Shown here: piece by piece, positions 10,126-25,727 of the stretch | How the letters are laid out: each line of letters starts with the position of its first letter | Numbering within the stretch: position 1 is the first letter of the stretch | From: Oscillospiraceae bacterium | GTDB taxonomy: Bacteria; Bacillota; Clostridia; Oscillospirales; JAAYXM01 | Length of the DNA: 64,000 nt | Direction of reading: 5' to 3' | Assembly (NCBI GenBank): GCA_017421025.1 | Contig: JAFQME010000020.1 | Coordinates: 1 to 64,000, forward strand | Translations under genes and position numbers: made by a program | The notes under the pieces: generated by a model | Told to the model about the DNA's origin: nothing | Database searches by the model: none | The model's input: the letters and a program-made list of their open reading frames with translations, nothing else

Positions 10126-11874
10126 ATGGCTGATTCTTCACGCAAGAAACAGAGTTTCCTCAAAGGCACCTTGATTTTATCCATCGCCGCCGTGATTGTG
10201 AAAGTAATTGGTGCAGTCTTCAAAATCCCGCTCATGAATATTTTGGGCGGAGACGGCATGGGATATTTCAGCACAGCATACGACTTGTATATGCCGGTGT
10301 ATGTTCTCTCCACCGCAGGACTTCCGGTAGCAATCGCACGTGTGGTGGCGGAATTCTCCTCACAGCACAGATTCCAAGATGTCAAAAAGACGCTAAAAGT
10401 CGCAAACCGCACATTCTTTGTCACAGGTTTTATCGGCTTTTGTATCATGTTTTTCGGTGCAAAATTCTTTGTCACCACCATTGAGAATCCGGGTGCATAC
10501 CTGGCAGTCCTCGCCATGGCGCCGACCGTGTTTTTCGTCTGTCTGACCAGTGCGTACCGTGGCTATTATCAAGGTCTTCAAAACATGTACCCCACCGCCA
10601 TTTCTCAGGTGGTAGAATCCCTGCTCAAGTTGGTTTTGGGCTTGGGGCTTTCCCTCTTGGTTTACAATGCGGGCATGAACGGATTTGATGCATCGGGTGC
10701 AGTTTTTGGCAAACACGCCGCCGATTTTGAAGCGGCTCGTCTCATCGCATTGCAATATGCTTCTGCCGCAGCAATCTTAAGCGTTGCAATCGGCTCCTTT
10801 GGCAGTGCACTTTCCACTTGGTTGTATTACCGATTCAAGGGCGACAGAATCTCAAAAGAAGAACTCTCCGCTCCGCAAGAAACGATTTCAGCAAATGCAA
10901 TCTTCAAAAAAGTGGTAAAAATCGCAGTTCCGATTGCACTCGGCTCTATGGTCGGGCAAGTCACCGGACTCATCGATCTTTGGAGTGTGCTCAACCGATT
11001 GGGCCATGCAGTGGAAACCAATTACGGCGCAATTGCCGAAATGTACGGAAGTGCCATCCCGGTTGGGAAAACACTGGAATCTATCCCGAATTACTTAAAC
11101 GGATGTTATAAAGGAATGGCAGTTACCCTGTACAACCTCATCCCGACATTCACGGTGGCAATGGGCGTGAGCGCCCTTCCTGCAGTTACCGTTGCTTGGG
11201 AAACCAAAGACCTCCCCGCACTCAAGCAGAATATTGAATCAGTTTTGCGTGTGACCCTGCTCTTCGTTCTGCCCGCCGGGCTTGGGATGTCCGCACTGTC
11301 ACAGCCCATTCTCACCCTGCTCTATGGTGGGAGACCAGACGAAGTCATCATTGCGACCCCGCTTTTGGCATACCTTGGTCTTGCAGTGATTTTTGCTGCC
11401 GCATGTTCCCCAATCAACAGTATGTTGCAGGCAGTGGGACGTGCAGATCTCCCGGTCAAGATCATGGTGGTCTGCGCTTCGTTAAAATTGATTATCAACT
11501 ATATCCTGGTCGGAATCCCTGAAATCAACATCCGTGGTGCCGCAATCGGAACACTGATCTGCTATGTTTTAATCATGACAATCAGCTTGTTCTTCCTGTT
11601 CCGAATTGCAAATATCAGACCAAATTTCAAAACCACCTTTATCCGCCCCACACTATCTGCTGTGATTTGTGCAGCGGCGGCATACGGTGCATATGAACTC
11701 TTCCACATTGTCCTTCCCGGAAATCTTTCCACGATACTTGCAATCGGAGTTGCGGCAGTGGTCTATGTGGTTTGTTTGGTGCTCTTACGTGCCATTACCG
11801 AGGATGATATCAAAATGCTTCCCAAAGGTGAAAAACTCGCTCAACTTTACCGCAAGCTCCCCGGAATCAAGTGA
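10126..11874 (+). CDS. MOP-superfamily lipid flippase (SpoVB/YtgP/MurJ-like)
   Basis: This 582-residue membrane protein has about 14 predicted hydrophobic helices. Its N-terminus (FLKGTLILSIAAVIVKVIGAVFKIPL, then GMGYFSTAYDLYMPVY) is typical of the YtgP/SpoVB polysaccharide-transport family; RGYYQGLQNMYPTAISQVVE is the conserved TM5 motif. Members flip lipid-linked wall precursors such as lipid II. AAGGAGG precedes the ATG and rpe lies 11 bp upstream, so the two are co-transcribed. A second member of the family is encoded at 54044-55609. Whether this one serves growth or the spore cortex cannot be told from sequence. Confidence 0.88.
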   Translation: MADSSRKKQSFLKGTLILSIAAVIVKVIGAVFKIPLMNILGGDGMGYFSTAYDLYMPVYVLSTAGLPVAIARVVAEFSSQHRFQDVKKTLKVANRTFFVTGFIGFCIMFFGAKFFVTTIENPGAYLAVLAMAPTVFFVCLTSAYRGYYQGLQNMYPTAISQVVESLLKLVLGLGLSLLVYNAGMNGFDASGAVFGKHAADFEAARLIALQYASAAAILSVAIGSFGSALSTWLYYRFKGDRISKEELSAPQETISANAIFKKVVKIAVPIALGSMVGQVTGLIDLWSVLNRLGHAVETNYGAIAEMYGSAIPVGKTLESIPNYLNGCYKGMAVTLYNLIPTFTVAMGVSALPAVTVAWETKDLPALKQNIESVLRVTLLFVLPAGLGMSALSQPILTLLYGGRPDEVIIATPLLAYLGLAVIFAAACSPINSMLQAVGRADLPVKIMVVCASLKLIINYILVGIPEINIRGAAIGTLICYVLIMTISLFFLFRIANIRPNFKTTFIRPTLSAVICAAAAYGAYELFHIVLPGNLSTILAIGVAAVVYVVCLVLLRAITEDDIKMLPKGEKLAQLYRKLPGIK

Positions 11875-11877
11875 AAA

Positions 11878-11916
11878 TTAAAAGCGATGAAGAAATTCTT
11901 CATCGCTTTTTTCTTT
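11878..11916. terminator. Shared convergent terminator
   Basis: The perfect stem AAAGCGATGAAGAA with its complement has T-runs on both strands and separates the flippase gene (plus) from the symporter gene (minus). Confidence 0.85.
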
Positions 11917-13339
11917 AGTCTTGCCAGAAATCGGTTGTATCTTTAAGTCCGATATTCTTTGCTTGAAAGACCGGGTTTTTGCCCGCTTTGCGCTGTTTGA
12001 CATAATCATCCAAACTGCGGATTGCAGGTTTTCCAAGCAAAACAATTACCGGCAGATTGATGATTGCCATAAAGCCCATGATGACATCAGACAAATTCCA
12101 AACCATACCGAATTCCATCTGTGCACCAAGGAAAACCAAGATACATGCAATCACATAGAAAACACGCATTTCCCATTTGCGCAGGGTACGCTTTGCGAGA
12201 TAATTGAGGCAGCTTTCACAATAGAACAAGTTGCCAATGAGCGTGGTAAATGCGAAAAGCAAAAGTGCAACAGTGACAAAATAAAAGCCGAATGAACCGA
12301 AGTTTACACTGAGTGCAGTTTGCACAAACGGAGCACCCGCAAGGGTTTCGTTTGGAACAAGACCACCGGAGAGACACATCATTGCGGTTGCGGTACAAAT
12401 GAGCAGAGTATCGATGAACACGCTGAGCATCTGAACCAAGCCCTGCTTGACCGGGTGGGTAACATCTGCGCTCGCTGCTGCGTTCGGTGCCGAACCCACA
12501 CCCGCCTCATTGGAATACAGGCCACGCTTGATGCCGTGCATGAGTGCCGAGCCGGCAAACCCGCCGAAGATTGCCTTGAAATCAAAGGCAGAAACAAAGA
12601 TGTTGCGGAACACTTCGGGCAGCATTTTGAAATTCAGAACCATCACCACAAGTGCCATGAGGATGTAGGTAACACCCATGATTGGGACCAAAACACCTGC
12701 CACCTTGACAATGCGTTTGCCTCCGCCAAGGACGCAGAAGCCCACCAAAACCGCAAGGATTGCACCGCAGATAAGCGGGACTTTTGAGGTGAGCGGATCA
12801 CCGTAGAAACTGTATTCGGAAAGACTGCTGACCAAGTTAAACGAGCAGAGCATGTTAAATCCAATCGCATAGGTTGCAATCAGTGCAATTGCAAAAATGA
12901 CACCCAGCCAACGCTGCTTGAGGCCGCCTTGAATGTAATATGCAGGACCGCCGTAGCTTCCGCCGTTTTCATCTCGTTTTTTGTAAATCTGAGCCAGAGT
13001 ACTCTCAATAAATGCAGAAGCACCGCCGATAAGTGCAATCACCCACATCCAAAACACAGCGCCGTAACCGCCAATTGCAATCGCATTTGCAACACCGACG
13101 ATATTTCCGGTGCCGACACGGCTGGCAGTAGAGACCATGAGTGCCTGGAACGGCGAAACTGCTTTTTTGTTATCGGATTTTTCAGTCGTCAGACGAATGG
13201 ATTCCCCCAGCATACGGAACTGGACGAATTTGGTGCGGATGGTGAAATACACTCCCACCGCCAAAAGCATGATGATCAGCACATAACTGTACATCACGTT
13301 GTTGATATCCCCAATCAACTGATCAAAAAATGCGTACAT
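11915..13339 (-). CDS. Alanine/glycine:cation symporter (AGCS family)
   Basis: This 474-residue transporter has about 10 hydrophobic segments. AGCS hallmarks are VSTASRVGTGNIVGVANAIAIGG near residue 75, FWMWVIALIGGASAFIESTLAQ, and KRGLYSNEAGVGSAPNAAA near residue 275. It takes up alanine or glycine with Na+ (or H+). AAGGGG lies eight bases before the ATG at 13339. It is transcribed alone and converges on the flippase terminator. Confidence 0.95.
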   Translation of the reverse strand: MYAFFDQLIGDINNVMYSYVLIIMLLAVGVYFTIRTKFVQFRMLGESIRLTTEKSDNKKAVSPFQALMVSTASRVGTGNIVGVANAIAIGGYGAVFWMWVIALIGGASAFIESTLAQIYKKRDENGGSYGGPAYYIQGGLKQRWLGVIFAIALIATYAIGFNMLCSFNLVSSLSEYSFYGDPLTSKVPLICGAILAVLVGFCVLGGGKRIVKVAGVLVPIMGVTYILMALVVMVLNFKMLPEVFRNIFVSAFDFKAIFGGFAGSALMHGIKRGLYSNEAGVGSAPNAAASADVTHPVKQGLVQMLSVFIDTLLICTATAMMCLSGGLVPNETLAGAPFVQTALSVNFGSFGFYFVTVALLLFAFTTLIGNLFYCESCLNYLAKRTLRKWEMRVFYVIACILVFLGAQMEFGMVWNLSDVIMGFMAIINLPVIVLLGKPAIRSLDDYVKQRKAGKNPVFQAKNIGLKDTTDFWQD

Positions 13340-13404
13340 GTCATTTCCCCTTAAAACAAAATTTGTTCCATTATAGCATAATTCTTTCTCAATTTCCAGA
13401 CTTT

Positions 13405-13443
13405 TTGAAAAAACGTGGGGTTAAAATCTTAACCCCACGTTTT
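13405..13443 (-). terminator. Terminator of the small lipoprotein gene
   Basis: The stem AAACGTGGGGTTAA (13411-13424) and its complement (13429-13442) is followed on the minus strand by a T-run at 13405-13413. Confidence 0.8.
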
Positions 13444-13461
13444 CCACTTTTGGTTTTCCGA

Positions 13462-13650
13462 TTATGCGTTTTCGAGGTCAATGTCGTCACATTCTGCGCA
13501 GAATACGATCCAGTCATCTGTCATGTTCGAGGTTTCAGAAACTTCCACTTGGGCACCACAACCATCACAAGTGAGGATCTTGGTTTTTCCACAACCGGAA
13601 ACAAAAACAAATAACCCCAATGCAAATATCAAACAAACAAGTTTTTTCAT
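13462..13650 (-). CDS. Small cysteine-rich lipoprotein
   Basis: This 62-residue protein starts at 13650, where AAAAGGAG precedes the ATG. Its lipoprotein signal peptide, MKKLVCLIFALGLFVFVSGC, is followed by a tiny mature part with two CxxC-like pairs (TCDGCGA and FCAECDD), suggesting a zinc ribbon or redox pair outside the membrane. No known family recognised. Confidence 0.7.
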   Translation of the reverse strand: MKKLVCLIFALGLFVFVSGCGKTKILTCDGCGAQVEVSETSNMTDDWIVFCAECDDIDLENA

Positions 13651-13666
13651 TAAATACGCACTCCTT

Positions 13667-14812
13667 TTAAGAAATTTGAACAAAGTCGATTTTGGTCAAT
13701 GACAATTTCACATCATAACCTAACCATTCCGCAACCTCTTCCAGCGGCACCATTGAAAGATCTGGCCTGTCAATAGAATAATCCGGAATATAGCCGTAGA
13801 ACTGCTTTTGCTGACCGGTTGCCTGATTTTGTAATGTAATCACCGCAAAGCGTTTTTCAATTGGGTTACCCATGTCAAAGAACAGTGCGTCGTCAGTTTC
13901 TTCCGGAACAAGTGAAGCACTGGTTGCAACAACACCTGCACAGAATTCTTCTGTGGTACTCGGGTAGCAATACATCTTCCCTTTCCAGTTTTTGTAGACA
14001 CCTACACCTCTGTAAGTCGGTTCTTCTCCGCGTTCAAGAATAATAAGTTGCCCGTTTATGGAACCAAGATAGGACTTGTAATGATAGCGATTACTCATAT
14101 CTGCGAGATGGAACAATGCCACCAGCGAAACCACAAAAGCAACAACTGCAATCAAGACTTTGGATTTCGATTTTCGAAAGATGAGGAAACCAAAAATTGC
14201 TCCAAGCGCAGCCGAGAGGATCACACATGAGATAACAGGATGGTTTCTCCAAAAATCCGAAACGGCAACACAGATGACTCCAATCAAAAGAAGCCACCAA
14301 AAAGAGAATCCGGAGCAGCCCGGCAACCTGGCACCTGAGCCATTGTCGGAACTTGATGTTCCCGAGTTGTAGTCAATATGAGACGTAACACTCGTTGCAT
14401 GAACCCCTGAGCTCAAGTGCAAAAGTGCAATCGCTGCCGCAGCAGCTGCACCATCAGCATCCCCGTCATACATTCCAATCACATCACTATACTGCATCGC
14501 TCCATTTGATCGGTAGATTTTCCCGCTCCCGTAGGTTGCAACAGTTCCTGCGGTAACAACCCCACCGCCTACTCCGGAGCTGACTCGACAGATTTTTCCA
14601 CCGCCATAGTTCCCGATGCAATAGGCACGAGAATATGATGAAACGCTATATACAAATCCGTTTTCATATTCACCAATCAATGTTCCTTTTGATGTAACAC
14701 CGCCAAAGCCCGGAGTTGCACTGTATATTTTCCCATTTTCATAAATTGCAACAGGGCTATCGACAGCTGTATTCCCGAGTGAATCTTCAAATGCACGATA
14801 TAAGGTGCCCAC
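13667..14812 (-). CDS. Unknown membrane protein with N-terminal GKIYxxxG repeats
   Basis: This 381-residue protein reads from GTG at 14812, chosen because AAAGGAG stands eight bases upstream. The N-terminal 130 residues hold at least five copies of a short beta unit of the form (Y/I)xxGKIYxxxG (for example YENGKIYSATPG, YGGGKICRVSSG, YGSGKIYRSNG). Three closely spaced transmembrane helices follow (about residues 180-255), then a soluble domain ending VKLSLTKIDFVQIS. No signal peptide is present. It has its own strong promoter and diverges from the TIR operon, so it may or may not belong to that system. Function unknown. Confidence 0.75.
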   Translation of the reverse strand: MGTLYRAFEDSLGNTAVDSPVAIYENGKIYSATPGFGGVTSKGTLIGEYENGFVYSVSSYSRAYCIGNYGGGKICRVSSGVGGGVVTAGTVATYGSGKIYRSNGAMQYSDVIGMYDGDADGAAAAAAIALLHLSSGVHATSVTSHIDYNSGTSSSDNGSGARLPGCSGFSFWWLLLIGVICVAVSDFWRNHPVISCVILSAALGAIFGFLIFRKSKSKVLIAVVAFVVSLVALFHLADMSNRYHYKSYLGSINGQLIILERGEEPTYRGVGVYKNWKGKMYCYPSTTEEFCAGVVATSASLVPEETDDALFFDMGNPIEKRFAVITLQNQATGQQKQFYGYIPDYSIDRPDLSMVPLEEVAEWLGYDVKLSLTKIDFVQIS

Positions 14813-14834
14813 ATCACCATCTCCTTTTATCAAA

Positions 14835-14863
14835 ATTATATTCTCTTTGCACACCAAAGTCAA
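14835..14863 (-). promoter_or_regulatory. Promoter of the repeat membrane protein gene
   Basis: On the minus strand, TTGACT (14858-14863), 17-bp spacer, TATAAT (14835-14840). The start codon lies 22 bases downstream of the -10. Confidence 0.8.
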
Positions 14864-15022
14864 TCAATCCCTAACTGAAACCAAGGATTGTCGCAAGCAT
14901 TCTTTTGTGTTTGATATCCTAGACACAGCTCAAAACAGAGTCAATCGACATCGTGATTATGACACTCTCACTCTCTTCTCAAAACAGAACTCACTTGTTG
15001 TTTGCAAAAAGTGTCGAATTGT

Positions 15023-15051
15023 TTGACAAATATGAAGATTTTGTATAAAAT
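15023..15051 (+). promoter_or_regulatory. Promoter of the TIR/AdoMetDC-like operon
   Basis: TTGACA (15023-15028), 17-bp spacer, TAAAAT (15046-15051), 37 bases before the GTG start of the TIR gene. No other comparable promoter was seen in the short gaps of the operon. Between 14864 and 15022 I see nothing coding. Confidence 0.75.
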
Positions 15052-15088
15052 AAATAAATGATTAAACATGATATGGGAGGTTGGTTTT

Positions 15089-16123
15089 GTGCCTAAGATT
15101 TTTCGCTACGAAGAAGTTACAGACGAACCATTTCTTTTCATTAGTTACAGCCATAAGGATAAACCTCTCACCGAAATGATGGCAACAACGTTATTGGAAA
15201 ACGGAGTGCGACTTTGGTATGACGAAGACTTGGCTTACGGAGATGAGTGGGAACAACGAGTAAGGCATTTAATTACTCATCCCAATTGCCACGGAGTCAT
15301 TTTCATGTGCAGCCCCGATTCCTATCTCAGCCCGGCAGTCCATACAGAGCGCTCGCTTGCATTGGAGACTCAGCAAGTGCGAGGGGAAGATAATTACCAA
15401 TTATTCCTGGTAAATGTGTGCGACGATCCAATTTCCGGAAGTTATATGAATCTTTTAAAAGCAACTTTTGCACGGTTATCAGCCGATTTGATTGATAAAC
15501 ACTTCCCGATCAAAGCCATGCACACGTTGATTAGCATTATAGGCAGAGATTCCATTGCCAGCAAAACCTGCGATGAAAACTGGGTTTTCGATCTATTGGA
15601 AAAAGGGATTCGTTGTCGAGCAAAGGAAACGATCGACAAAGGCGCTGTGATTCTTGACAATATGCAAAGTGCTGCGCATTTCGGCAACATAAGTCTTCCC
15701 TTTGGGACACTTCAGGTTGGCGAGGAGACTCTCCCGCTCAAATGGCAATTGATTGACCGAGAGCAATCCGATGGATTATTTTTATTGGAAGCGCCTCTCC
15801 CTGCAATGAATGGGGGCGACAATCTGTCAAAGTGGCTCAATGGAGAATTCCGAAAAAAAGTTTTTTCTCCGGAGCAGGATGCCAAAATCATTGGCAATAT
15901 TCGGCTTTTGACGCTGAAAGAAGCAAAAAAAATCCCCGCAACGGCTATGAAAACTGGAAACCGTTGGTGGTTGGCTGACCGCCAAGGAGGAAAACAAGCT
16001 TGGGTAGATGCCGAAGGATGTGTAAGCGAGCGAAATTATTCCATCGCTTCCCGTTTTTCCTTTGATGTTCGCCCGACAATTACACTCACAATGCAAGATG
16101 CAGAACAGTTGTTCCAACAATAA
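15089..16123 (+). CDS. TIR domain protein with C-terminal DUF6273-like domain
   Basis: This 344-residue protein starts at GTG 15089, which has GGGAGG eight bases upstream; an in-frame ATG at 15068 lacks a site. Residues about 15-140 are a TIR domain: FLFISYSHKDKPLTEMM (strand A and box 1), GVRLWYDEDLAYGDEWEQRV, GVIFMCSPDSYLSPAVHTERSLALE. TIR domains are protein adaptors or NAD+-consuming enzymes; the LExG glutamate of SARM1-type NADases reads LAYG here, so catalysis by that residue is doubtful, though HTERSLALE could supply a glutamate. Residues about 215-340 resemble DUF6273 (WLNGEFRKKVFS, NRWWLADRQGG, VRPTITL), a domain often fused to signalling or surface modules. The next gene begins 18 bp downstream. 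As the only effector-like domain in the operon, it is the probable output. Confidence 0.88.
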   Translation: MPKIFRYEEVTDEPFLFISYSHKDKPLTEMMATTLLENGVRLWYDEDLAYGDEWEQRVRHLITHPNCHGVIFMCSPDSYLSPAVHTERSLALETQQVRGEDNYQLFLVNVCDDPISGSYMNLLKATFARLSADLIDKHFPIKAMHTLISIIGRDSIASKTCDENWVFDLLEKGIRCRAKETIDKGAVILDNMQSAAHFGNISLPFGTLQVGEETLPLKWQLIDREQSDGLFLLEAPLPAMNGGDNLSKWLNGEFRKKVFSPEQDAKIIGNIRLLTLKEAKKIPATAMKTGNRWWLADRQGGKQAWVDAEGCVSERNYSIASRFSFDVRPTITLTMQDAEQLFQQ

Positions 16124-16141
16124 TAAAAGGAGATGTGTATC

Positions 16142-18418
16142 ATGAGTAATAGCAATGTGCAAGACGCCACTACCGAAAGAAAGATTCCTTTGGTTTTCGA
16201 AGCTCATAACGATAAGGAAGATGTCGCAAAAAACATATTTGTTGAGTTAAACAAGCGTTTTATCACCATCACTGAAAATGGCAGAAAGCGCAAGGGTTTC
16301 TGCATGGAAGACGGTTCCCGCCGCATCGGTTTGCTTTCTCAGTGCCATTCGCTGCAAACCATGGTTTCCTTGGCGCAGGATTTTGGATTGGACTTTACAG
16401 ATGCAAATATTATTGAAAAACAAAACGGAACCATCCGTGAAATGATGGACGCCGTCATCGAAGATGTTTTGGAACTTTTATATGTCAAGAATGAAAACGG
16501 CGATGTCACGGGTTACAAATTTGACGCTTCTCCCTATGAAACCGATGCATTTAATGAAACTTATTCCAACATTGACTCTATCACCTGGGTCATCTCGTCC
16601 TTCCTTCTCATTTTAAAACACCATGCACACATTCATGAGGTATGTAAATGGGAGTCGGTTTTGGTAGACGTCATCAAACGTGGCTTAAATTATATCAACA
16701 ATTCTTTTATCTCCAAAAAAGGTGACGGTACCTCTTTGACAACCGGTTGGAACTTTACCGCTGAGTGCGAAGAGCCGTCTTTGTATTTCACTTTTGCTGT
16801 TTGTGATTGTTACATTTCTTTTTACAATACATTTGAAGTCTTTTTGAAGTACTTGCATGCAGAACGCAACAAAGAACAGCTCGGCGGTGTGCGAATCAAT
16901 GAAGACGACGAAAAGCAGCGAGAACGCTACAAAGAGTGGGAAGATACCTACAAAAAGAACTTGTTGGAATACGAAGAGCACCGCGATGACGTTGTTGCCG
17001 ATGAGAAGACTGCGCGTCACAATGAATATAACGAACTGATCCGTGTATTCCGTCTAATCAACGACATTAACGACCGTGATGAAGTGCGGATTGAAAATAC
17101 ATTATATGAAAAACTCGCAACAAACTGCATGACGGTTGCAAAGCAGGTTTGGGCTTGCACCAAAGAGAATCTCGCTGAGAAATTTTTCTACAACGATTTA
17201 AAAAATACAGTTACCGAGCAGGAACTCAAAATGAGTACTACCAGTGACGTCTTGTTTAACACTGTGTATATCATCAACATCATGCTGAGTGCCGGTTTAG
17301 ACGCAGACTTGGAGTTAGAGCGTGAGAAAGCCAAGCGTTGGGGCGACATGGAAACTGTGCGTGAAAAACAGCGTGAATACGATAACTTGCTGGAAAGCTG
17401 CATGCTCGCAGTTCAGAGAGCATTCCGCACCTACGAAAGCCTGCGCAATGCCGGCAAGGATTACATCGTTGACCAATTCCTGATCGGTTTCAACGAAAAC
17501 TTTGACGGACATAAAATGCCAATCAGTGAGTTGCGTAAACTCCGCATGCGTGTATTCTCCCTTGTTCCGCTGCTGATCCATACAAACAACACCATCAGCG
17601 AATACCTCATCAAATATCCGCATTACAATATGCGTAAGTACCATCAGTATATTTTGGACAACCGCTTTGTTGACAAAAACAATAAAGTGCATTGGATTTG
17701 GGAACGTGACGGCTTCTTCAGCGGCAGCAATTTCTATTATGTGCTCTCCCTTAAGGAATTCTATAACTATCACGAAACCTACGAAGATCCCTACATTGAA
17801 ATCCACAGCAAGAATTCAGAGCAGCGCAAAATCATTGAGGGACGTTACAAAAAAGACCTGGAGTTACCGGACGGAGCGATCGGCAAATTAGAAATCGAGA
17901 AGAATTCTCTTGAACGGGCAAACTCGGCACAAGCCGCTGAAATCAAGGAACTGAAACAGCAGCTTGAAAATATAGAACGTCCGGTTGAAGATGCGGTGCG
18001 CAACATTGTAAACGAAGAGTTTGAAAAGCAGTTTGCGCTTCGCTTGTCTCAGGCGTTCTCTACCACATCCAAGGTACTGACTTTACCCTCAGTGGATGAC
18101 ACATCTGACATTCCGTTACCCAGCGTTCAGAAAACGACCGACGGCGACGAAACAACATCGGATGACAAGAAGAAGAGGAGAAAAAAGAAAGAGAGAACTC
18201 CCGGCATTTACGAATCCATCAACAATTCATTGTTCGAGTTAATTTGGAGATCAATGTTGGCAAGGTTCTGTGACTCGCAAATTGGCACTACAATTACAGC
18301 GGATGAGTATCTTGCATTCCAGGAAAAAGTAAAAAAAGAATTTGCTCGAACTGTTCGCCGTTATATTAACGATATTTGCTATCAAAGTGAGCAAATATCT
18401 GACACAGAAAACAAATAA
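16142..18418 (+). CDS. Large orphan protein of the TIR operon (758 aa)
   Basis: I recognise no family. Start at ATG 16142, nine bases after AAGGAG. The protein is soluble, charged and mostly helical by composition. A segment around residues 205-240 (GWNFTAECEEPSLYFTFAVCDCYISFY) is the most conserved-looking part. Residues about 260-300 are very rich in Glu, Lys and Arg and probably a coiled coil. A second coiled coil lies at about 583-613 (LERANSAQAAEIKELKQQLE). A disordered Ser/Thr/Asp linker and a lysine-rich patch (KKKRRKKKER) follow, then a helical end. It may be a scaffold or sensor. It sits between the TIR gene and the ATPase gene with gaps of 18 and 34 bp. Confidence 0.75.
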   Translation: MSNSNVQDATTERKIPLVFEAHNDKEDVAKNIFVELNKRFITITENGRKRKGFCMEDGSRRIGLLSQCHSLQTMVSLAQDFGLDFTDANIIEKQNGTIREMMDAVIEDVLELLYVKNENGDVTGYKFDASPYETDAFNETYSNIDSITWVISSFLLILKHHAHIHEVCKWESVLVDVIKRGLNYINNSFISKKGDGTSLTTGWNFTAECEEPSLYFTFAVCDCYISFYNTFEVFLKYLHAERNKEQLGGVRINEDDEKQRERYKEWEDTYKKNLLEYEEHRDDVVADEKTARHNEYNELIRVFRLINDINDRDEVRIENTLYEKLATNCMTVAKQVWACTKENLAEKFFYNDLKNTVTEQELKMSTTSDVLFNTVYIINIMLSAGLDADLELEREKAKRWGDMETVREKQREYDNLLESCMLAVQRAFRTYESLRNAGKDYIVDQFLIGFNENFDGHKMPISELRKLRMRVFSLVPLLIHTNNTISEYLIKYPHYNMRKYHQYILDNRFVDKNNKVHWIWERDGFFSGSNFYYVLSLKEFYNYHETYEDPYIEIHSKNSEQRKIIEGRYKKDLELPDGAIGKLEIEKNSLERANSAQAAEIKELKQQLENIERPVEDAVRNIVNEEFEKQFALRLSQAFSTTSKVLTLPSVDDTSDIPLPSVQKTTDGDETTSDDKKKRRKKKERTPGIYESINNSLFELIWRSMLARFCDSQIGTTITADEYLAFQEKVKKEFARTVRRYINDICYQSEQISDTENK

Positions 18419-18452
18419 ATATGTTCATTTCAATCAGAAAAGGAGTTAAATT

Positions 18453-19391
18453 ATGCCTGCAAATGTGATATCTTATTTTTCTTATAAAGGCGGTGCAGGG
18501 CGCAGTACCCTGGCATACAACACCATTCCGCTGATGATAAACGAACACATTCATCCCACGAAAGAGCATCCTGTCGTGGTGGTTGATATGGACATTGACA
18601 GTTGCGGTATGTCCTATCTGCTCGGAATTCCCGCAAAAGACATTCGTGGCGATGCCTGTGTACAGCATATTTTAAAAGAAGGTTGCGACACGAGGGTTGC
18701 CGGATGTATTCAAGATCATGCGTTTTTGAAACACTTGATCCCAGTCGGAAACAAATTCAACTATGCTGACAACGATGCGGTTCTCTTTTTACCTGCAAAA
18801 GATAACAAAAACATCAACCAAGACACTGTTTACGGGAATTATGAGGGGCCGGGTCCGTTTACCGAGTGTATGCGCAGTTTCATTGATGCCTGCGAAAACC
18901 ACGGTGTTTCCACAGTGATTTTGGACTCTGCAGTTGGTTATCAAGCAACCGCCAATGTTTCCAACACCCTTGCAGACACCATTGTCTGCTGCATGCGTCC
19001 GACCAAGCAGTTTGTCGACGGTACTGTCCGTTATTTGGAGTCTTTGGATTCAGATGAAGATTCTCCGATCGGTGGCGGTGAAAAACGAATTATCATCGTC
19101 CCCAACGTCATTCCGCAAACCCAGATGAGCATCGATGGGCTAGAGTATCCCAGTACCGCAATTTCTTATTTCCGTTCTCTCCTTTCAGATGTATTGGACC
19201 GCGATGAGGATGACGACATTCAATACGCCATTGATATGATGGAAGGAAACGGTGTTGATTTTGGCATTCCCGCACTTCCAAGTTTCATGTGGCGAGAAGG
19301 ACAGCTGTGTTCTATGACCAAATTGGACGAGGACGAACAGCATGTTCTTGTTCGATACCGCAAATTGGCAGGAGTTATTTGTGATTTCTAA
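18453..19391 (+). CDS. ParA/MinD-like P-loop ATPase with KGGAGRST Walker A
   Basis: This 312-residue SIMIBI-class NTPase has the deviant Walker A SYKGGAGRST at residues 10-19: the signature Lys12 is kept but the usual P-loop Lys before Ser/Thr is Arg17. Switch I-like VVVVDMDIDSCG follows near residue 45, then VILDSAVG (Walker B) near 155 and IIIVPNVI near 210. ParA-like proteins with YKGGxGR loops occur in multi-gene signalling and conflict operons rather than in plasmid partition (general knowledge of the family). No centromere-like repeats or parB are nearby, arguing against partition. AAAGGAG precedes the ATG. Likely a nucleotide-dependent switch for the operon. Confidence 0.88.
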   Translation: MPANVISYFSYKGGAGRSTLAYNTIPLMINEHIHPTKEHPVVVVDMDIDSCGMSYLLGIPAKDIRGDACVQHILKEGCDTRVAGCIQDHAFLKHLIPVGNKFNYADNDAVLFLPAKDNKNINQDTVYGNYEGPGPFTECMRSFIDACENHGVSTVILDSAVGYQATANVSNTLADTIVCCMRPTKQFVDGTVRYLESLDSDEDSPIGGGEKRIIIVPNVIPQTQMSIDGLEYPSTAISYFRSLLSDVLDRDEDDDIQYAIDMMEGNGVDFGIPALPSFMWREGQLCSMTKLDEDEQHVLVRYRKLAGVICDF

Positions 19392-19415
19392 CGTTAAAAC
19401 CAGAGAGGGATAACA

Positions 19416-21779
19416 ATGAGTGAATACGAAACCATGAGTCAAGAGGAACTCAAAGCCGAACTAAAACGGATTAGAGCACAATTGCAGTATGTTTTTGAAG
19501 ATGAAATTACGGATGAAAATATTCGGCACTTTATTTTCGGGAAATATGGGTATGATCTGAAAACAATCAAAGCAACCAATGAATTCCCAAAATATTTCAA
19601 AAACATTCTCACGTTGACATATTTCTTTGCGTTCGCCTGCTACCAGAGGGACCTCAATGAAGGCTTTGGTGATATGGACAACGTGAAAGGACATGTGGCA
19701 TTGCGTGTCAAACGTTATTTGGAAGATTCCCTTGCCACAAACCCCATCACAATGTCCTTAATCGAGTTTGTTTTATCAGATATACAAACCGATTTAGCGC
19801 TCGGCGGAAGCAGCGAACTGAATGCCACCTTTTCCAATCTCGGAACATTTGATAATGGGTTTAATTTTCAGCCGTATCTTAAGTCAATTTCTAAATATGA
19901 GGAATCGCCGAATCGTTTTAGAGCAAGCAAGCTTGAAATGACAGTTTTATTGCTCCGTATGGTGGAAAACCTGACGTTTTTGAAAAAGTATAATTTGATT
20001 GAAGATGCGCCCGGCAAGTTCCGTTTCGCATCAGATACCTGCCTAAAGAAGCAGAAACTCGGTATCGAATTGAGTAAATCTGAACGCTATGACGAACTTC
20101 CGGTCGACCATCTCTTCTTCAAAGATAGTACTCTCCCCGGCATTATTTTCCGTCTATACAGTTTGGAAACCGGCGAAAGTTCTGAGGGCGCTGTTGCGCA
20201 AAATCTCCTGCGGTTGCGTTATGTTTCCACAATTGGAAATCAAACCCGCATTTTTACAGTTCCCGGTGAAACCGGTGACTCTCATCTCTCAGATGCAGAT
20301 CCGATCCTTCTCTACGAGGAGATCGTCGCATTTGAATGGAACAAACACAAAGAATTGCGTTCTGCCGGGATGGATGCCTTGAGCATTTGCCAAATCCATA
20401 CCGTAAATTACAAGTATCTCAAACCATTGGCACTCGCAATTTCAGATGTCCTCAGCGACCATGATGAAGCCAAGCGAAAATTACATGGTCTTTTCTCAAA
20501 AAAATACTCATATATCTTCGAACAAAAGAGACAAATGATTCTTTCCAACGAAACCGGAAGCGATCAGTATGATCTATTGGATTGGGATTCCATCATCATC
20601 ATGCTTCTCATCGAGGCAAGTCCTACTGTTGTACTGGAAGCAATCACGCAAATCAACCGAGACTTGTTTTATCTGATTTGCCAAGATTTATACAAGCGTG
20701 TATACGATGTGGAAAACTTGACTCTGTTCAAAGGAACAAAAGACCAAATCAAGGCTGCAATTGATGCTATCATCGAGAAAAAGCTTGCTTTGATGAGCAA
20801 AGACAGCAGTTTCAGTAAACTATCCGCAAATCAAATGCGCGACAAGCTCTTCCCCAAGGCTGCCTCCATGTTGTTGCTCACCAAACTGAACGACCTTCAG
20901 AATGACGATATTGAAGAAAATCTTGTATATACAGGCGATCTTGATACCTATCTTTCCCTGCTCAAAAGAACCAAGGAAGAGTTGGATTCCGAAAAACAGA
21001 TCAAATATTCCTGTATCATCTTAGGTGAAACCATCAAACGTCTCATTTGTTTCTACGAGGGATTGATCGCATACGGGGAAAAAAAAGCACCGTATGACAA
21101 ACAAGCTCGCTGTAAATCCTTGGACAAAGACGAAATTAAAAAAGTCCAAAATAAGCTGGAAAAAGTATTTCTGAATGCGGCAGAAACTGCAGCAAGCGAC
21201 TTCCCGTCCGAGCCAAGCCGCGATCCGGCTTCTGCGCTTGCAATTTTGGATCAATTCTGTACTTTGTGCAAAAAATGTGCCAGTTTGGACAACAACAAAA
21301 TGTCACAGCACCTTGTTGCAGCGATCGGACGTTTTGAAATCGTTGATGCGACCCGTTTCGGCAAGTTTGTACAACAACTTCGCACTTTGAACACACCTTC
21401 CTTGGAGCAGCATGCCGGCAAGTGGCTTGATGTTACTCTTGAAATGCTCGAGTATTTCAAGAGTGGCAGAACTCGCAAGATAACCATGGACGATGATTTG
21501 CTCAATGCGGTATATCCTTTCACAATCTCCTTCAAGAAAGGCAAAGAGAATCTTGATGGATACAAAACTGTCACATTTTCATTGGACATCGTGATGGACG
21601 AGAAGAACAAGGAAGAAGAGATCAATGTTCTCTCTGAGTTCATTTACGAGCCAAACGAAGCATACTATTGTCTTCCTAACATCATTCGTTCCAACTACAA
21701 ATGGTGGATTGATCCTGTTTTAGTCAGTTTCCGGAAGTTTAACCATATTTTGTCCGCCGAAAGAAAGGAAGATGAATGA
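19416..21779 (+). CDS. Large orphan protein of the TIR operon (787 aa)
   Basis: No family recognised. It is a soluble, largely alpha-helical protein with an N-terminal short coiled coil (SQEELKAELKRIRAQLQ), an acidic helical middle and a C-terminal part with likely beta strands (YPFTISFKKGKENLDGYKTVTF). No catalytic motif stands out. GAGAGGG precedes the ATG. It ends in ATGATGA, so the next gene starts inside its stop codon, implying translational coupling and near-equal dosage with the AdoMetDC-like protein. It could be its structural partner. Confidence 0.75.
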   Translation: MSEYETMSQEELKAELKRIRAQLQYVFEDEITDENIRHFIFGKYGYDLKTIKATNEFPKYFKNILTLTYFFAFACYQRDLNEGFGDMDNVKGHVALRVKRYLEDSLATNPITMSLIEFVLSDIQTDLALGGSSELNATFSNLGTFDNGFNFQPYLKSISKYEESPNRFRASKLEMTVLLLRMVENLTFLKKYNLIEDAPGKFRFASDTCLKKQKLGIELSKSERYDELPVDHLFFKDSTLPGIIFRLYSLETGESSEGAVAQNLLRLRYVSTIGNQTRIFTVPGETGDSHLSDADPILLYEEIVAFEWNKHKELRSAGMDALSICQIHTVNYKYLKPLALAISDVLSDHDEAKRKLHGLFSKKYSYIFEQKRQMILSNETGSDQYDLLDWDSIIIMLLIEASPTVVLEAITQINRDLFYLICQDLYKRVYDVENLTLFKGTKDQIKAAIDAIIEKKLALMSKDSSFSKLSANQMRDKLFPKAASMLLLTKLNDLQNDDIEENLVYTGDLDTYLSLLKRTKEELDSEKQIKYSCIILGETIKRLICFYEGLIAYGEKKAPYDKQARCKSLDKDEIKKVQNKLEKVFLNAAETAASDFPSEPSRDPASALAILDQFCTLCKKCASLDNNKMSQHLVAAIGRFEIVDATRFGKFVQQLRTLNTPSLEQHAGKWLDVTLEMLEYFKSGRTRKITMDDDLLNAVYPFTISFKKGKENLDGYKTVTFSLDIVMDEKNKEEEINVLSEFIYEPNEAYYCLPNIIRSNYKWWIDPVLVSFRKFNHILSAERKEDE

Positions 21780-22588
21780 TGAGAGCGACAAGACATTTTA
21801 TGTTAGATGCTTACGACTGCAACTTCGAACAAGCCAACAGTTTCATGGTTGTAAACACCTTGTTGGTCACATTAGCAAACGAGTTGGAAATGAACCCCAT
21901 TATGCCCCCGTTTGTTCTGCCGTACTACTACTGTGATGAAACCGAAGACGGTGGGATTAGTGCATTTGTTCTTTGCGAGAACGGCTCTCACATCACCGTA
22001 CATACATTCCCCTATCGCTACTGCTACTTCATTGATATTTTAACGGATAAATTCTTTGAAGAGGAACGAGCAAAGGAATTAATTTTGCGACAAATTTATG
22101 CAAAAAAAATGAATGTACTGGTGACTGACCGTCGATACGATTCTCTGAAAGAGAGTGTTATTAACAGTTCAACGGATTTTGGACCACACTACATGATAAC
22201 AATCGAAAACCTAGATGCTTCTATGGAAAGCATCTATAGTTGGTTAGATTCTGTGGCGCCAAAGATTAACATGCTTCCTATCTCACGTCCGTATGTTATC
22301 TTTGATCGCATTGAAGATCACGACTATATCTCCGGGGTATTGGTTGTAGCACAAAGCCATATCGCATTCCACTATTCCACAAAAGAAAGATGTGCTCATG
22401 TTGATATTTTTTCTTGTAGTTTCTTAGACGACGGAGTTGTTGAAAACATCTTGGAGCAATCTTTTGGGCAGGATGTCAAAATTCAGCTTTTCGCACGTGG
22501 AAGTAAGCATAAACACAATATACAATATACAGAAAAGCACAATGACAACGTTCGCATGAACAAGTCTTGGCGCACAAGTATCATGTAA
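21776..22588 (+). CDS. Tandem S-adenosylmethionine decarboxylase-like protein
   Basis: This 270-residue protein contains two copies of the prokaryotic AdoMetDC (SpeD/SpeH) fold. In copy 1 (residues about 5-108), RHFMLDAYDCNFEQANS matches the family opening and GSHITVHTFPY the processing site: Ser71 and His76 align with the pyruvoyl serine and catalytic His, Asp87 with the conserved Asp, but the catalytic Cys position is Asp91. In copy 2 (about 136-245), GVLVVAQSHIAFHY, then VDIFSC, puts Ser194, His199, Asp210 and Cys214 at exactly the canonical +5, +16 and +20 spacing, while the Glu before the serine is Gln193. Classical enzymes are single-domain, about 120-130 residues, and sit with polyamine genes; none is near. 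The protein may bind or process SAM-like ligands. It overlaps the previous gene by 4 bp and ends the operon. Confidence 0.8.
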   Translation: MMRATRHFMLDAYDCNFEQANSFMVVNTLLVTLANELEMNPIMPPFVLPYYYCDETEDGGISAFVLCENGSHITVHTFPYRYCYFIDILTDKFFEEERAKELILRQIYAKKMNVLVTDRRYDSLKESVINSSTDFGPHYMITIENLDASMESIYSWLDSVAPKINMLPISRPYVIFDRIEDHDYISGVLVVAQSHIAFHYSTKERCAHVDIFSCSFLDDGVVENILEQSFGQDVKIQLFARGSKHKHNIQYTEKHNDNVRMNKSWRTSIM

Positions 22589-22597
22589 TTTACAAAC

Positions 22598-22636
22598 ACA
22601 AGAGGTGCTCCGTAATCGGAACACCTCTTGTTTTCC
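22598..22636 (+). terminator. Terminator of the TIR operon
   Basis: ACAAGAGGTG and its complement form a stem of about 10-13 bp with an 8-nt loop, followed by TTTTCCCTTT, ten bases after the last stop codon. Confidence 0.85.
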
Positions 22637-22741
22637 CTTTAAGGCACTCACTTTTTAGACTCACTCCAATCCTTTGAAGAATCGTTCTAGTTGTGGTATG
22701 ATTTGTTAAAAAAGAAAGAAACGGCAGTCTTCTTTGTCAAC

Positions 22742-23043
22742 TCAGAGAACGAGAGAGGGTGCGGTATAGATTCTTGCGGCGTATTCGCTGTCCAGCGAGT
22801 AGAGACCTTTGCTGTCTCCGCCGAAGAGTTCCATCTTCTTGATCATATCATCCGCGTTTTTCTCTTCCTCAAGCTGCTCTTTTACGAACCAGTCGAGGAA
22901 TTGCATGGTGCGGAAATCCTTTTCTGCATAAGCTGCAGCATAGATATCGTTGATGAGACTTGTTACATAACGCTCATGTTCAAGGCCTGCTTTCAGCGGA
23001 TCCATCAGGCTCTTCAGTTCTTTGTCCGGTCCGTCATCGCACC
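22742..23043 (-). pseudogene. 3' fragment of a duplicated ferritin gene
   Basis: The minus strand repeats the last about 100 codons of the intact ferritin gene at 24645-25157 (MDPLKAGLEHERYVTSLIND ... YAARIYTAPSLVL) with only about four differences in the first 290 bases. Towards its 5' side the match breaks down near 23030: one base is missing relative to the intact gene (frameshift in the APDKELKSL region) and similarity stops at about 23045. The four-helix bundle lacks its first half and most ferroxidase ligands, so it cannot be functional. The duplicated stretch continues past the stop to about 22688 but has lost half of the terminator hairpin. Confidence 0.9.
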
Positions 23044-23164
23044 GAGAGTTGCCTATTTTTCTCTCAACGGGAGATGTTTTAGAAACAACATTGACGTGAT
23101 TTCACTGCATTTTTCAAAATTTTCTTTCATTTTTCCACATTTTTAAGATTTTCCAAAAATAAAA

Positions 23165-23193
23165 TTGACTCTATTATTCAAGAGTAATATAAT
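23165..23193 (+). promoter_or_regulatory. Promoter of the LRR gene
   Basis: TTGACT (23165-23170), 17-bp spacer, TATAAT (23188-23193). The spacer and -35 contain an inverted repeat, ACTCT-N8-AGAGT. The interval 23046-23164 holds no gene that I can support. Confidence 0.75.
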
Positions 23194-23226
23194 AGACCCA
23201 AAGACAAAAGAAAGCAGGGACGGAAA

Positions 23227-24321
23227 ATGAACCAGGATTTTAAAATTCAGAATGGCGTGTTGTACGCATACAATGGATCTAAAGAAATAGAAGAACTCAT
23301 AATACCCGAAGGTGTAACAGAAATCTATTCGTGCAAAATAGTTTATACCAACATCCGTTCCATTGTTTTTCCTACAACATTGATGCATATTAGAAGCGAA
23401 GTTTTCTGCAACTGCTCTAGACTAGAACGTATTACTTTCTTGTCAAAAAAAGTCTCAATAAGCGATAATGCGTTTGCAAAAAGTTCCTTAAGCGAAATAA
23501 TAAACCCTGAAAGAATCTCTGCTGTTGGTAGCTATGCTTTTTCTGAAACGAAACTGACTCATATTATCCTTGTCAACATTGACGATTTAGGCGTAGAAGC
23601 TTTTTCGCATTGTCGCCTTTTACAACACGTTGAATTATCCGACAATTTGCGTTGTATTCCCCACAAATGCTTTTATTCCTGCCCTTCCTTGAGATTTATA
23701 AAATTACCGAAAAACCTTGAACGGATATCGGACGGAGCTTTTAATTTTTCTCCTGTACCTGTTATCAAGATACCAGATACAGTACATGAAATAAAGTTAT
23801 TAGGAAATTATGCAACTTTTGACGATTCTACAAAAATTGAATTTGGCGAAAACCATCCTTATTTTCAGTTTACTAACAACAAAATCATCAAACGTCCCTT
23901 TCACGAAGAAGGCGGATTATATACAATTGTACCTTACGATGTGGCAGGGCGTGCCACTACTAAAAGAATCGCAAATCAAAACGAGTCCTGTCATCTAAAA
24001 AAGGTTTTGTATAAAGAGGAACAAATAAGAAAGTTTCAAAAGCTTTGCTCTGAGTATTGCTTCTTGGTAACAACTTATGACATTGAAGGAAATGATGATT
24101 TGGATATCGAAACAGAGACCCTTGTAAGCAAGACTTACCGTGATATTTCTATTGATAGCATGGTGATCAAAGACAACGAGGTGATCGGTTTCATGTGCGC
24201 AGACAGTGTTATAATGATTGCCGATGTTGGCACTTCTGTAACAGAGAAGAGTTGTTACAGAAGTACATCCGCATCTTGTTATACTGAAAGAAAAGAAGAA
24301 TACCTACTTTTAAAAAGATAA
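23227..24321 (+). CDS. BspA-like leucine-rich repeat (LRR_5) protein, cytoplasmic
   Basis: This 364-residue protein has LRR_5 (BspA-type) repeats over residues about 15-200: EELIIPEGVTEIYS, RSIVFPTTLMHIRSEVFCNCSRLERITF, LTHIILVNIDDLGVEAFSHCRLLQHVELSDN, LRFIKLPKNLERISDGAF. There is no signal peptide or anchor, unlike surface BspA proteins. The C-terminal 160 residues are a separate domain that I do not recognise. The gene is richer in A+T than its neighbours and lies between broken copies of ferritin and rubrerythrin, so it was probably acquired. GGGACGG is a weak ribosome site for the ATG at 23227. Confidence 0.85.
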   Translation: MNQDFKIQNGVLYAYNGSKEIEELIIPEGVTEIYSCKIVYTNIRSIVFPTTLMHIRSEVFCNCSRLERITFLSKKVSISDNAFAKSSLSEIINPERISAVGSYAFSETKLTHIILVNIDDLGVEAFSHCRLLQHVELSDNLRCIPHKCFYSCPSLRFIKLPKNLERISDGAFNFSPVPVIKIPDTVHEIKLLGNYATFDDSTKIEFGENHPYFQFTNNKIIKRPFHEEGGLYTIVPYDVAGRATTKRIANQNESCHLKKVLYKEEQIRKFQKLCSEYCFLVTTYDIEGNDDLDIETETLVSKTYRDISIDSMVIKDNEVIGFMCADSVIMIADVGTSVTEKSCYRSTSASCYTERKEEYLLLKR

Positions 24322-24351
24322 ATCTATGTTGATCCATTGTGTTTAATATCC

Positions 24352-24388
24352 CCCCCTTGACAACCGGTATTACCTATTGTCAAGGGGG
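24352..24388 (+). terminator. Inverted repeat after the LRR gene, probable terminator
   Basis: A 12-bp perfect stem, CCCCCTTGACAA (24352-24363) with its complement (24377-24388), has only a weak T-run after it (ATAATTTGTTGCTATTTT). It is probably a terminator, though the unusual C-run leaves doubt. Confidence 0.55.
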
Positions 24389-24435
24389 ATAATTTGTTGC
24401 TATTTTAGCAGAGTCCTTATATGCTTACCGTTGTT

Positions 24436-24512
24436 GAGCTTCGTCCTTTGCCATTTCGTGGGCGGTGGCGTGGATTGCATCCAGCGGTGACAACTTCGCT
24501 AAGCGGTTGTGG
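24436..24512 (-). pseudogene. Rubrerythrin gene remnant
   Basis: The plus-strand stretch 24436-24484 matches the 3' coding part of the intact rubrerythrin gene near 25228-25280 at roughly nine bases in ten. The following 28 bases (24485-24512) match a second stretch near 25372-25400, with the intervening bases deleted. No open frame survives. It is more diverged than the ferritin fragment. Between 24513 and 24589 I see no further feature. Confidence 0.7.
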
Positions 24513-24589
24513 CTCCCCCCTGCAGTAATTATCTGTGGGGGGCGGAACATTTTACTCCCTTGAGGAATTGGCATAGTTGTGGTATGATT

Positions 24590-24632
24590 TGGGGGGATAA
24601 AAAAGAAAGACCGCCGTTAAGAAACGGCAGTC
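24590..24632 (-). terminator. Terminator of the ferritin operon
   Basis: On the minus strand, GACTGCCGTTTCTTAACGGC and the flanking GGTC form a hairpin followed by TTTCTTTTTTAT. Confidence 0.85.
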
Positions 24633-24644
24633 TTCTTTGTCAAC

Positions 24645-25157
24645 TCAGAGAACGAGAGAGGGTGCGGTATAGATTCTTGCGGCGTATTCGTTATCCAGCG
24701 AGTAGAGACCTTTGCTGTCTCCGCCGAAGAGTTCCATCTTCTTGATCATATCATCCGCGTTTTTCTCTTCCTCAAGCTGCTCTTTTACGAACCAGTCGAG
24801 GAATTGCATGGTGCGAAAATCCTTTTCTGCATAAGCTGCAGCATAGATATCGTTGATGAGACTTGTTACATAACGCTCATGCTCAAGGCCTGCTTTCAGC
24901 GGATCCATCAGGCTCTTCAGTTCTTTGTCCGGAGCATCCACAGCACCGAGTGTGACTTTCTCACCGTTTTGCTGCAGGTATTTGAGGAACAGCATTGCAT
25001 GATCACGCTCCTCTTGTGCCTGGATCATGTACCAGTTTGCAAAGCCGTCAAGGCCTTCTGCTTCGTAGTAAACCGAGAAATCCAAATACAGGTATGCGGA
25101 ATAGAGTTCTTTTGTGATCTGCTCATTGAGCAGTCTGGAAACATTTGGATGTAACAT
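24645..25157 (-). CDS. ftnA: Ferritin (bacterial non-haem, FtnA-like)
   Basis: This 170-residue four-helix ferritin stores iron as ferric mineral in a 24-mer shell. Ferroxidase-centre ligands are visible in LNEQITKELYSAYLYLD (Glu17-type), YEAEGLDGFANWYMIQAQEERDHAM (ExxH) and FVKEQLEEEKNADDM (Glu and Gln). ATG 25157 has GAGGTG upstream. It is last in a perR-rubrerythrin-ferritin operon (24 bp after the rubrerythrin stop), which ties iron storage to peroxide defence. A truncated near-identical copy lies at 22742-23043. Confidence 0.96.
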   Translation of the reverse strand: MLHPNVSRLLNEQITKELYSAYLYLDFSVYYEAEGLDGFANWYMIQAQEERDHAMLFLKYLQQNGEKVTLGAVDAPDKELKSLMDPLKAGLEHERYVTSLINDIYAAAYAEKDFRTMQFLDWFVKEQLEEEKNADDMIKKMELFGGDSKGLYSLDNEYAARIYTAPSLVL

Positions 25158-25181
25158 GAAACTCACCTCATTTTCAAAGAT

Positions 25182-25727
25182 TTAACCGAAATAACGGTTG
25201 AGGAGTCCGACAAAGCCGCAGCCATGGCGAGCTTCGTCCTTTGCCATCTCATGGACGGTGTCGTGGATTGCATCCAGATTCATTGCCTTTGCACGCTTTG
25301 CAAGATCCATCTTACCGGCGCAAGCACCATGCTCTGCATCTGCACGCATCTCGAGGTTCTTCTTGGTGCTGTCGGTAACAACTTCGCCGAGCAGTTCTGC
25401 GAATTTTGCAGCATGCTCTGCTTCTTCAAATGCATAACGCTTGAATGCCTCTGCGATTTCCGGATAGCCTTCACGGTCTGCCACACGGCTCATTGCCAGG
25501 TACATACCGACTTCGGTGCACTCCCCTTCAAAGTTCATGCGCAGGCCCTTGATGATCTCTTCATCTACGCCCTGAGCAATTCCGACACGGTGCTCATCAG
25601 CATAAGCGATTGCACCGTCTTTCTTCTCGACAAATTTGTCCTTCGGTGCACGGCAGGTGGGGCAGATATCCGGTGCCTCGTTGCCTTCGTGAACATAACC
25701 GCAAATGGTGCATACAAACTTTTTCAT
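25182..25727 (-). CDS. Reverse rubrerythrin (NADH-peroxidase component)
   Basis: This 181-residue protein has its rubredoxin domain at the N-terminus ([17 protein letters not shown], residues 6-26), followed by the diiron four-helix domain ([52 protein letters not shown]). Domain order is the reverse of classical rubrerythrin, as in the clostridial enzymes that reduce H2O2 and O2 with electrons from NADH via an oxidoreductase. It is the middle gene of the perR operon. This is a strong sign of a strict anaerobe. Confidence 0.95.

Follow-up and report, generated by a model that had tools for sequence, protein, structure and literature searches.

The TIR operon and its last gene, dSpeD

The window (the whole stretch of 64,000 nt that was analysed), which comes from a gut bacterium, contains a five-gene operon on the forward (+) strand, in which the genes for a TIR protein, P761, a MinD-like ATPase, P787 and dSpeD (double SpeD) follow one another in this order. 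The first gene (15068..16123) encodes a protein of 351 aa with a TIR_2 domain at residues 24-121 (PF13676, 2.4e-14) and a C-terminal region without assignment. Its E94, which we take to occupy the usual position of the NADase glutamate, lies in a column without variation across 20/20 aligned TIR proteins. Judged by sequence, the protein thus combines a TIR fold with a conserved catalytic Glu and is a candidate NADase. P761 (761 aa; 16133..18418) and P787 (787 aa, mostly helical; 19416..21779) belong to no known family and gave no match in Pfam, NCBIfam or PADLOC. No convincing relative of solved fold was found for either: the sole PDB match of P761 was a coiled-coil (vimentin), and the model of P787 (pLDDT 74.6) had no significant PDB fold match. 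P787 carries a conserved WWI-P motif near its C-terminus. The gene between them (18453..19391) encodes a MinD/ParA-like ATPase with a KGGxxR variant of Walker A (NF047398 AAA_KGGVGR, 3e-15; at 57 bits short of the curated cut-off of 90), whose residues K12, G13, G14, R17, T19, D45 and D47 are invariant in 16 sequences. The last gene, dSpeD (270 aa; 21776..22588), is the main finding of this work. It has an ATG start and no internal stop, and its start overlaps the P787 gene by 4 nt. The initial annotation had called a gene of this kind in a TIR operon unusual, and the five-gene arrangement with TIR is confirmed here.

The operon is preceded by a weak promoter-like site (TTGACA-17-TAAAAT; 15023..15051, +), a type of site whose regional count was not above that in shuffled sequences. 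It ends directly after dSpeD with a terminator-like hairpin identified by eye (AAGAGGTGCTCCG-TAAT-CGGAACACCTCTT, then GTTTT; 22600..22633, +), which the terminator scan missed because its T run is short. The operon has a G+C content of about 0.42-0.43, most of the flanking sequence one of 0.48-0.51. Rfam gave zero matches over 14000-24700. PADLOC returned generic TIR and weak ATPase matches only and no described anti-phage system, and the nine large flanking proteins that were checked had no matches to defence genes. By these searches the operon is neither a described defence system nor situated among defence genes.

A BspA-type LRR gene (23227-24321; PF13306, 2e-39) adjoins the operon; in the type B loci described below such LRRs are fused to TIR. 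A direct repeat of 300 bp, 99% identical, occupies 22716-23015 and 24619-24918: the ferritin-like gene (24645-25166, -) has a truncated copy of its 3' part immediately behind the operon, which suggests that this sequence was duplicated when the operon/LRR segment inserted. A further repeat of 49 nt (92%; 24436-24484 and 25229-25277) is a piece of the rubrerythrin-like gene (25182-25727, -), with its second copy in the stretch that separates the LRR gene from the ferritin-like one. On the other side, divergent to the operon, a gene at 13667-14863 (-) encodes a protein of 398 aa that contains hydrophobic stretches and matched no family convincingly.

The initial annotation had read dSpeD as a duplicated AdoMetDC fold, and both domain search and structure prediction agree with it. 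Pfam gave two matches to AdoMet_dc (PF02675; 1.9e-23, 83.3 bits against a cut-off of 25), in an N-terminal domain (21794..22132, +) and a C-terminal domain (22220..22501, +), and each half scored over the cut-off separately. The AF2 model, from a 23-sequence alignment (mean pLDDT 81.6, pTM 0.81), consists of two similar alpha/beta units. The comparison with Thermotoga and human AdoMetDC proposed in that annotation was carried out with Foldseek: the best PDB match was T. maritima AdoMetDC (1tmi; E 3.5e-07, TMt 0.83), and the human fused AdoMetDC matched over about 300 columns (1msv; E 8e-05). Domain score and predicted alpha/beta sandwich both place dSpeD in the PF02675 superfamily. Against TIGR03330, the model for bona fide class 1b AdoMetDC, it reached 67.3 bits, below the equivalog cut-off of 75.65, and sister dSpeDs reached 58.9 and 49.4 bits.

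Related loci and phylogeny

A search of genome contigs found 22 relatives of dSpeD, every one of them in a MAG of uncultured Clostridia or Bacilli and most of them gut-derived. The five-gene operon is repeated in nine of these loci (type A; L003-L010, L023). Eleven others (type B; L012-L021, L024, the contig of L016 beginning within P~870) contain TIR-LRR, P~870, ATPase, P~800 and dSpeD, followed by genes for two enzymes, one of the radical SAM kind and one PEP-synthase-like. The former, present in 11/11 type B loci, is 64-78% identical to the copy of L013 and counts as one of the best conserved components of this type; it scored over the cut-off of NF045502, with a weak assignment to the MSMEG_0568 family. 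The latter, likewise found in 11/11, has 700 aa with PPDK_N and PEP-utilizer domains in its L013-type form, and is inverted and placed at the other end in L015. In L013 the two genes together occupy 10821-13995. Two loci differ from both types. L011 (7177-10804) holds TIR-LRR, a CitMHS transporter and dSpeD and lacks the ATPase, P761 and P787; as the dSpeD of L011 falls within type A, the other parts were lost or left behind and the TIR neighbour stayed. In L022 an agmatinase-like gene precedes dSpeD, and there is no TIR gene within the flanks examined.

In all TIR-type loci with a contig long enough to show it (21/21, the window included), a TIR gene lies upstream of dSpeD. The same partners were found in 20 more loci, whose flanks are unrelated; only 3 weak matches between loci were seen among 133 flanking ORFs. 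Types A and B share the position of dSpeD and the gene order, with an identity of only about 13-30% between their other proteins and those of the window; P761 is conserved in type A (40-54% identity) and recognisable in type B. The partnership of dSpeD with TIR, the ATPase and two uncharacterised proteins is fixed, and half of the loci add two small-molecule enzymes. The operon itself is rare, as a search for P761 in 391 genomes of the class found the window's own genome only. A phage or plasmid origin was considered and rejected, plasmids and viral contigs containing no full-length relative of dSpeD or P761.

Profile searches of the class and phylum yielded 11 further full-length double proteins, which make up a metabolic sister clade. 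In a tree of 34 doubles they form one clade (100/100), followed by L022 and then by types A and B; the exact place of L022 is unsure because of its long branch. Three of the eleven are encoded in polyamine operons: speD-speE-speB-dSpeD in L083 (speB being an agmatinase, TIGR01230, 274.8 bits against a cut-off of 174.3), speD-speE-dSpeD in L084 and dSpeD-speE-speB in L106. No polyamine gene (speE/speB) was present within the flanks examined of L103-L105 and L107-L111. When the halves were analysed separately, the N-halves formed one clade and the C-halves another, which points to a single duplication. Both grouped with single-domain FGPHLMLD-type SpeD homologues and were split from 7 canonical AdoMetDC sequences (100/100), in trees built without biochemically proven SpeDA/SpeDC sequences. 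By this placement both halves branch with putatively neofunctionalised SpeD homologues and not with true AdoMetDC.

Active-site residues

Residues S194, H199, D210, C214, Q193, S71, H76 and D91 of dSpeD are all present where the initial annotation had placed them, and the split conservation that it described extends to 34 full-length double proteins (types A and B, L011, L022 and the 11 members of the metabolic sister clade). S194, H195, H199, Y200, D210, F212 and C214 of the C-half are invariant in 34/34, as are S62, H72, H76, T77, F78, R81 and D87 of the N-half. The pattern is thus not a chance one, and loss of these residues at random, which would speak against the reading, was not seen. 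S194, H199 and C214 reproduce Ser63, His68 and Cys83 at exact spacing within one domain in all 34 proteins, and by analogy with T. maritima S63 the predicted cleavage and pyruvoyl site is at Ser194 (codon 22355..22357, +; bond Q193/S194). As these catalytic residues of the C-half are kept in every relative, dSpeD is probably a working enzyme.

The N-half has no complete set. Cys is absent from it in 34/34 homologues. Ser occupies position 71 in the type A clade alone (11/11, with L011 counted), where a one-residue insertion immediately precedes it; Gly takes its place in 23/34, namely type B (11/11), L022 and all 11 metabolic relatives. The D91 column is D or N in type A, D in type B and other residues elsewhere. 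The first-half residues S71 and D91 therefore exist as annotated but are not generally conserved, and the N-half is untenable as a second processing site. The Glu that follows HT[WF]P in canonical SpeD is also missing, in 33/34 N-halves.

It had further been proposed that self-processing may be impaired by the change of Glu to Gln before the serine. Gln193 is fixed in 23/23 proteins of types A and B, L011 and L022, and Glu is found in the 11 metabolic relatives. Since the fixation includes L022, in which dSpeD stands beside an agmatinase-like gene, decay is ruled out as an explanation of the change. The remaining active site does not vary, and selection on both halves is purifying (dN 0.09-0.21; omega about 0.05-0.06 where dS could be estimated, dS being at or beyond saturation in most comparisons), which lends impairment no support. 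Gln193 might be the Gln among the four diagnostic residues of SpeDC ornithine decarboxylases (Gln, Thr, Phe, Tyr; PMC10407285, Fig. 8), but we make no such claim, as single-domain homologues have Gln elsewhere too (...ITQPYVF...).

An explanation for the asymmetry may lie in the architecture of known AdoMetDCs. In the T. maritima and human enzymes each active site is built by two domains, one providing the pyruvoyl Ser and the Cys and the partner providing the equivalents of Ser55 and His68. The invariant residues of dSpeD fit one composite site per chain, with S194 and C214 from the C-half and S62 and H76 from the N-half. By this analogy the N-half would act as partner subunit to the C-half in one composite site, which is more economical than the 'ligand-binding half' of the initial annotation. 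A ligand-binding role for one half is possible, but binding of SAM or SAM-AMP has no specific support, given that the clade lies off the AdoMet-specific SpeD branch and that the Glu after HT[WF]P is missing.

Substrate and role of dSpeD

The initial annotation had noted that polyamine genes are absent nearby, and in the window's genome (G000, 77% complete) this holds genome-wide for agmatinase, a second SpeD and spermidine synthase (SpeE) over cut-off; one gene of the PF01276 PLP-decarboxylase type, itself over the cut-off, is present. Among all 22 TIR-operon genomes (G000, G475-G495), a second PF02675/SpeD gene and agmatinase occur in 0/22 and SpeE convincingly in 1/22 (G491), with two more weakly over cut-off. 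A role of dSpeD in the spermidine pathway of these genomes was accordingly rejected. The location of sister dSpeDs in polyamine operons instead indicates decarboxylation of arginine (or ornithine). Arginine is favoured because agmatinase-family genes adjoin three dSpeDs, those of L083, L106 and, with an agmatinase-like gene of 152.7 bits (under cut-off), L022. It is favoured also because no other ADC/ODC-type gene was found in the assembled L022 genome: PF01276 is absent, and its only PF02784 protein, encoded in the same locus, is a DAP decarboxylase. The argument is weakened by the PF01276 PLP-type decarboxylase present in each of G279, G316 and G000, which might be an arginine decarboxylase, and agmatine would have no known use in the TIR-operon genomes, since they lack agmatinase. 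AdoMet is disfavoured by the TIGR03330 score, the branching, the missing Glu and the canonical speD beside sister genes. Most likely, to judge from these sequences, the substrate is L-arginine, with L-ornithine second, and not AdoMet.

On balance we favour, as the probable though by no means secure reading, that dSpeD is a single-site pyruvoyl decarboxylase of arginine or ornithine, a fused pseudo-dimer recruited to a TIR operon where its amine is used. The C-half would cleave itself between Gln193 and Ser194, converting Ser194 to the pyruvoyl group, and Cys214 would serve as the catalytic acid. The N-half, having lost its own site, would contribute Ser62 and His76 and part of the substrate pocket. 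The product would most likely be agmatine, or next to that putrescine. In evolutionary terms, dSpeD probably descends from a polyamine enzyme of Clostridia that became a fixed gene of a mobile operon for TIR, the KGGxxR ATPase and two proteins of no known family. Within the TIR system the amine would most likely act as a ligand or as a building block, and in type B the radical SAM and PEP-synthase-like enzymes would probably process it further. dSpeD is thus probably an active enzyme that supplies an amine to a TIR system not described before, and not a broken or merely ligand-binding protein. More tentatively, the operon could encode TIR signalling of a new kind, with the TIR protein armed or restrained by an amine of the agmatine/putrescine type that the system makes for itself. 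The TIR systems known to us so far use nucleotide signals or direct sensing. Were the proposal correct, a pyruvoyl decarboxylase would be an obligate part of an immune-like machine, with an amine elaborated by the two additional enzymes in type B, and polyamine-type chemistry would be tied to TIR activity in a testable gene set.

Other explanations share part of this evidence. A dead or weakly processing pseudo-enzyme, in which Gln193 blocks cleavage and which senses SAM, polyamines or MTA for the TIR protein, would account for the Gln throughout the clade, for an N-half without its own site and for the resemblance of the operon (TIR, ATPase) to a signalling system. It is unlikely, however, because invariance of S194, H199 and C214 is unexpected in a dead site and because Gln193 is also present in L022. 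We think it rather improbable that dSpeD is a true AdoMet decarboxylase of the fused class 1b kind, acting for the TIR system through the decarboxylated AdoMet that it makes or the SAM that it uses up. dSpeD does have the fold and Pfam family of AdoMet_dc, and SAM is also the cofactor of the type B radical SAM enzyme, but all the points raised above against AdoMet apply, including the complete canonical speD next to two sister copies, and spermidine synthase is nearly absent from the carrier genomes. The poorest prospect is that an ordinary polyamine gene came to stand at the operon end by an accident of transfer. Membership of three sister-clade genes in polyamine operons and the last position of dSpeD in type A would suit such a passenger; its constant place in two divergent operon types with differing flanks, the overlap with P787 and the lack of a downstream polyamine enzyme in the genomes would not.

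SpeD-SpeD fusions, some with a degenerate member, and SpeD-derived pyruvoyl arginine and ornithine decarboxylases have been published (PMC10407285, PMC9992855). The SpeD1-SpeD2 fusions of Desulfotignum phosphitoxidans, Ca. Omnitrophica OLB16 and Victivallis vadensis resemble dSpeD in having two class 1b SpeD domains per chain (271-318 aa) with pyruvoyl sites at internal serines and a half that may be degenerate (PMC10407285). They have an active N-terminal AdoMetDC half, a C-half that is an ODC or degenerate, and an adjacent speE (PMC10407285). In dSpeD, by contrast, the N-half is degenerate (without Cys in 34/34 and without Ser in 23/34), the C-half is intact, both lie outside canonical AdoMetDC, and the context is a TIR/ATPase operon. 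The SpeDA/SpeDC arginine/ornithine decarboxylases are likewise SpeD-derived and occur without spermidine synthase, beside agmatinase or a second speD (PMC10407285, PMC9992855). This matches the near absence of SpeE from the TIR-operon genomes and the adjacent speD in L083 and L084, but those enzymes, unlike dSpeD, mostly have a single domain and are encoded elsewhere than in TIR operons. Eukaryotic class 2 AdoMetDC (human, 1msv/1jl0) is also a fused duplicated fold with one pyruvoyl site, but the human enzyme is only about 7% identical to dSpeD and its active half is N-terminal. With the second half active and the first degenerate, dSpeD would be its independent mirror image.

In its TIR protein with the Glu column and its MinD-like ATPase with altered Walker A, the operon is similar to Thoeris, SAVED-TIR and the MinD/ParA-like domains in VMAP systems (PMC7159879); P761 and P787, lacking a PADLOC family match, are unlike components of described TIR defence systems. 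The literature searched contained no SpeD-type decarboxylase alongside Thoeris, SAVED-TIR or VMAP systems and no paper tying SpeD/AdoMetDC or pyruvoyl enzymes to TIR systems, an absence that is not proof. What appears to be new is the TIR-operon partnership, the presence of radical SAM and PEP-synthase-like genes alongside, and the inverted order of active and degenerate halves off the canonical branch.

A single-domain FGPHLMLD-type gene was also found in the Microcystis phage MaAM05, beside a canonical speD and speE. The region (L049, 92-1584) comprises two adjacent speH genes and speE, one speH product being a canonical SpeD and the other the FGPHLMLD-type homologue, which may be an ornithine or arginine decarboxylase. 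It shows the same pattern as the adjacent speD pairs with ODC or ADC activity described by Li et al. (PMC10407285).
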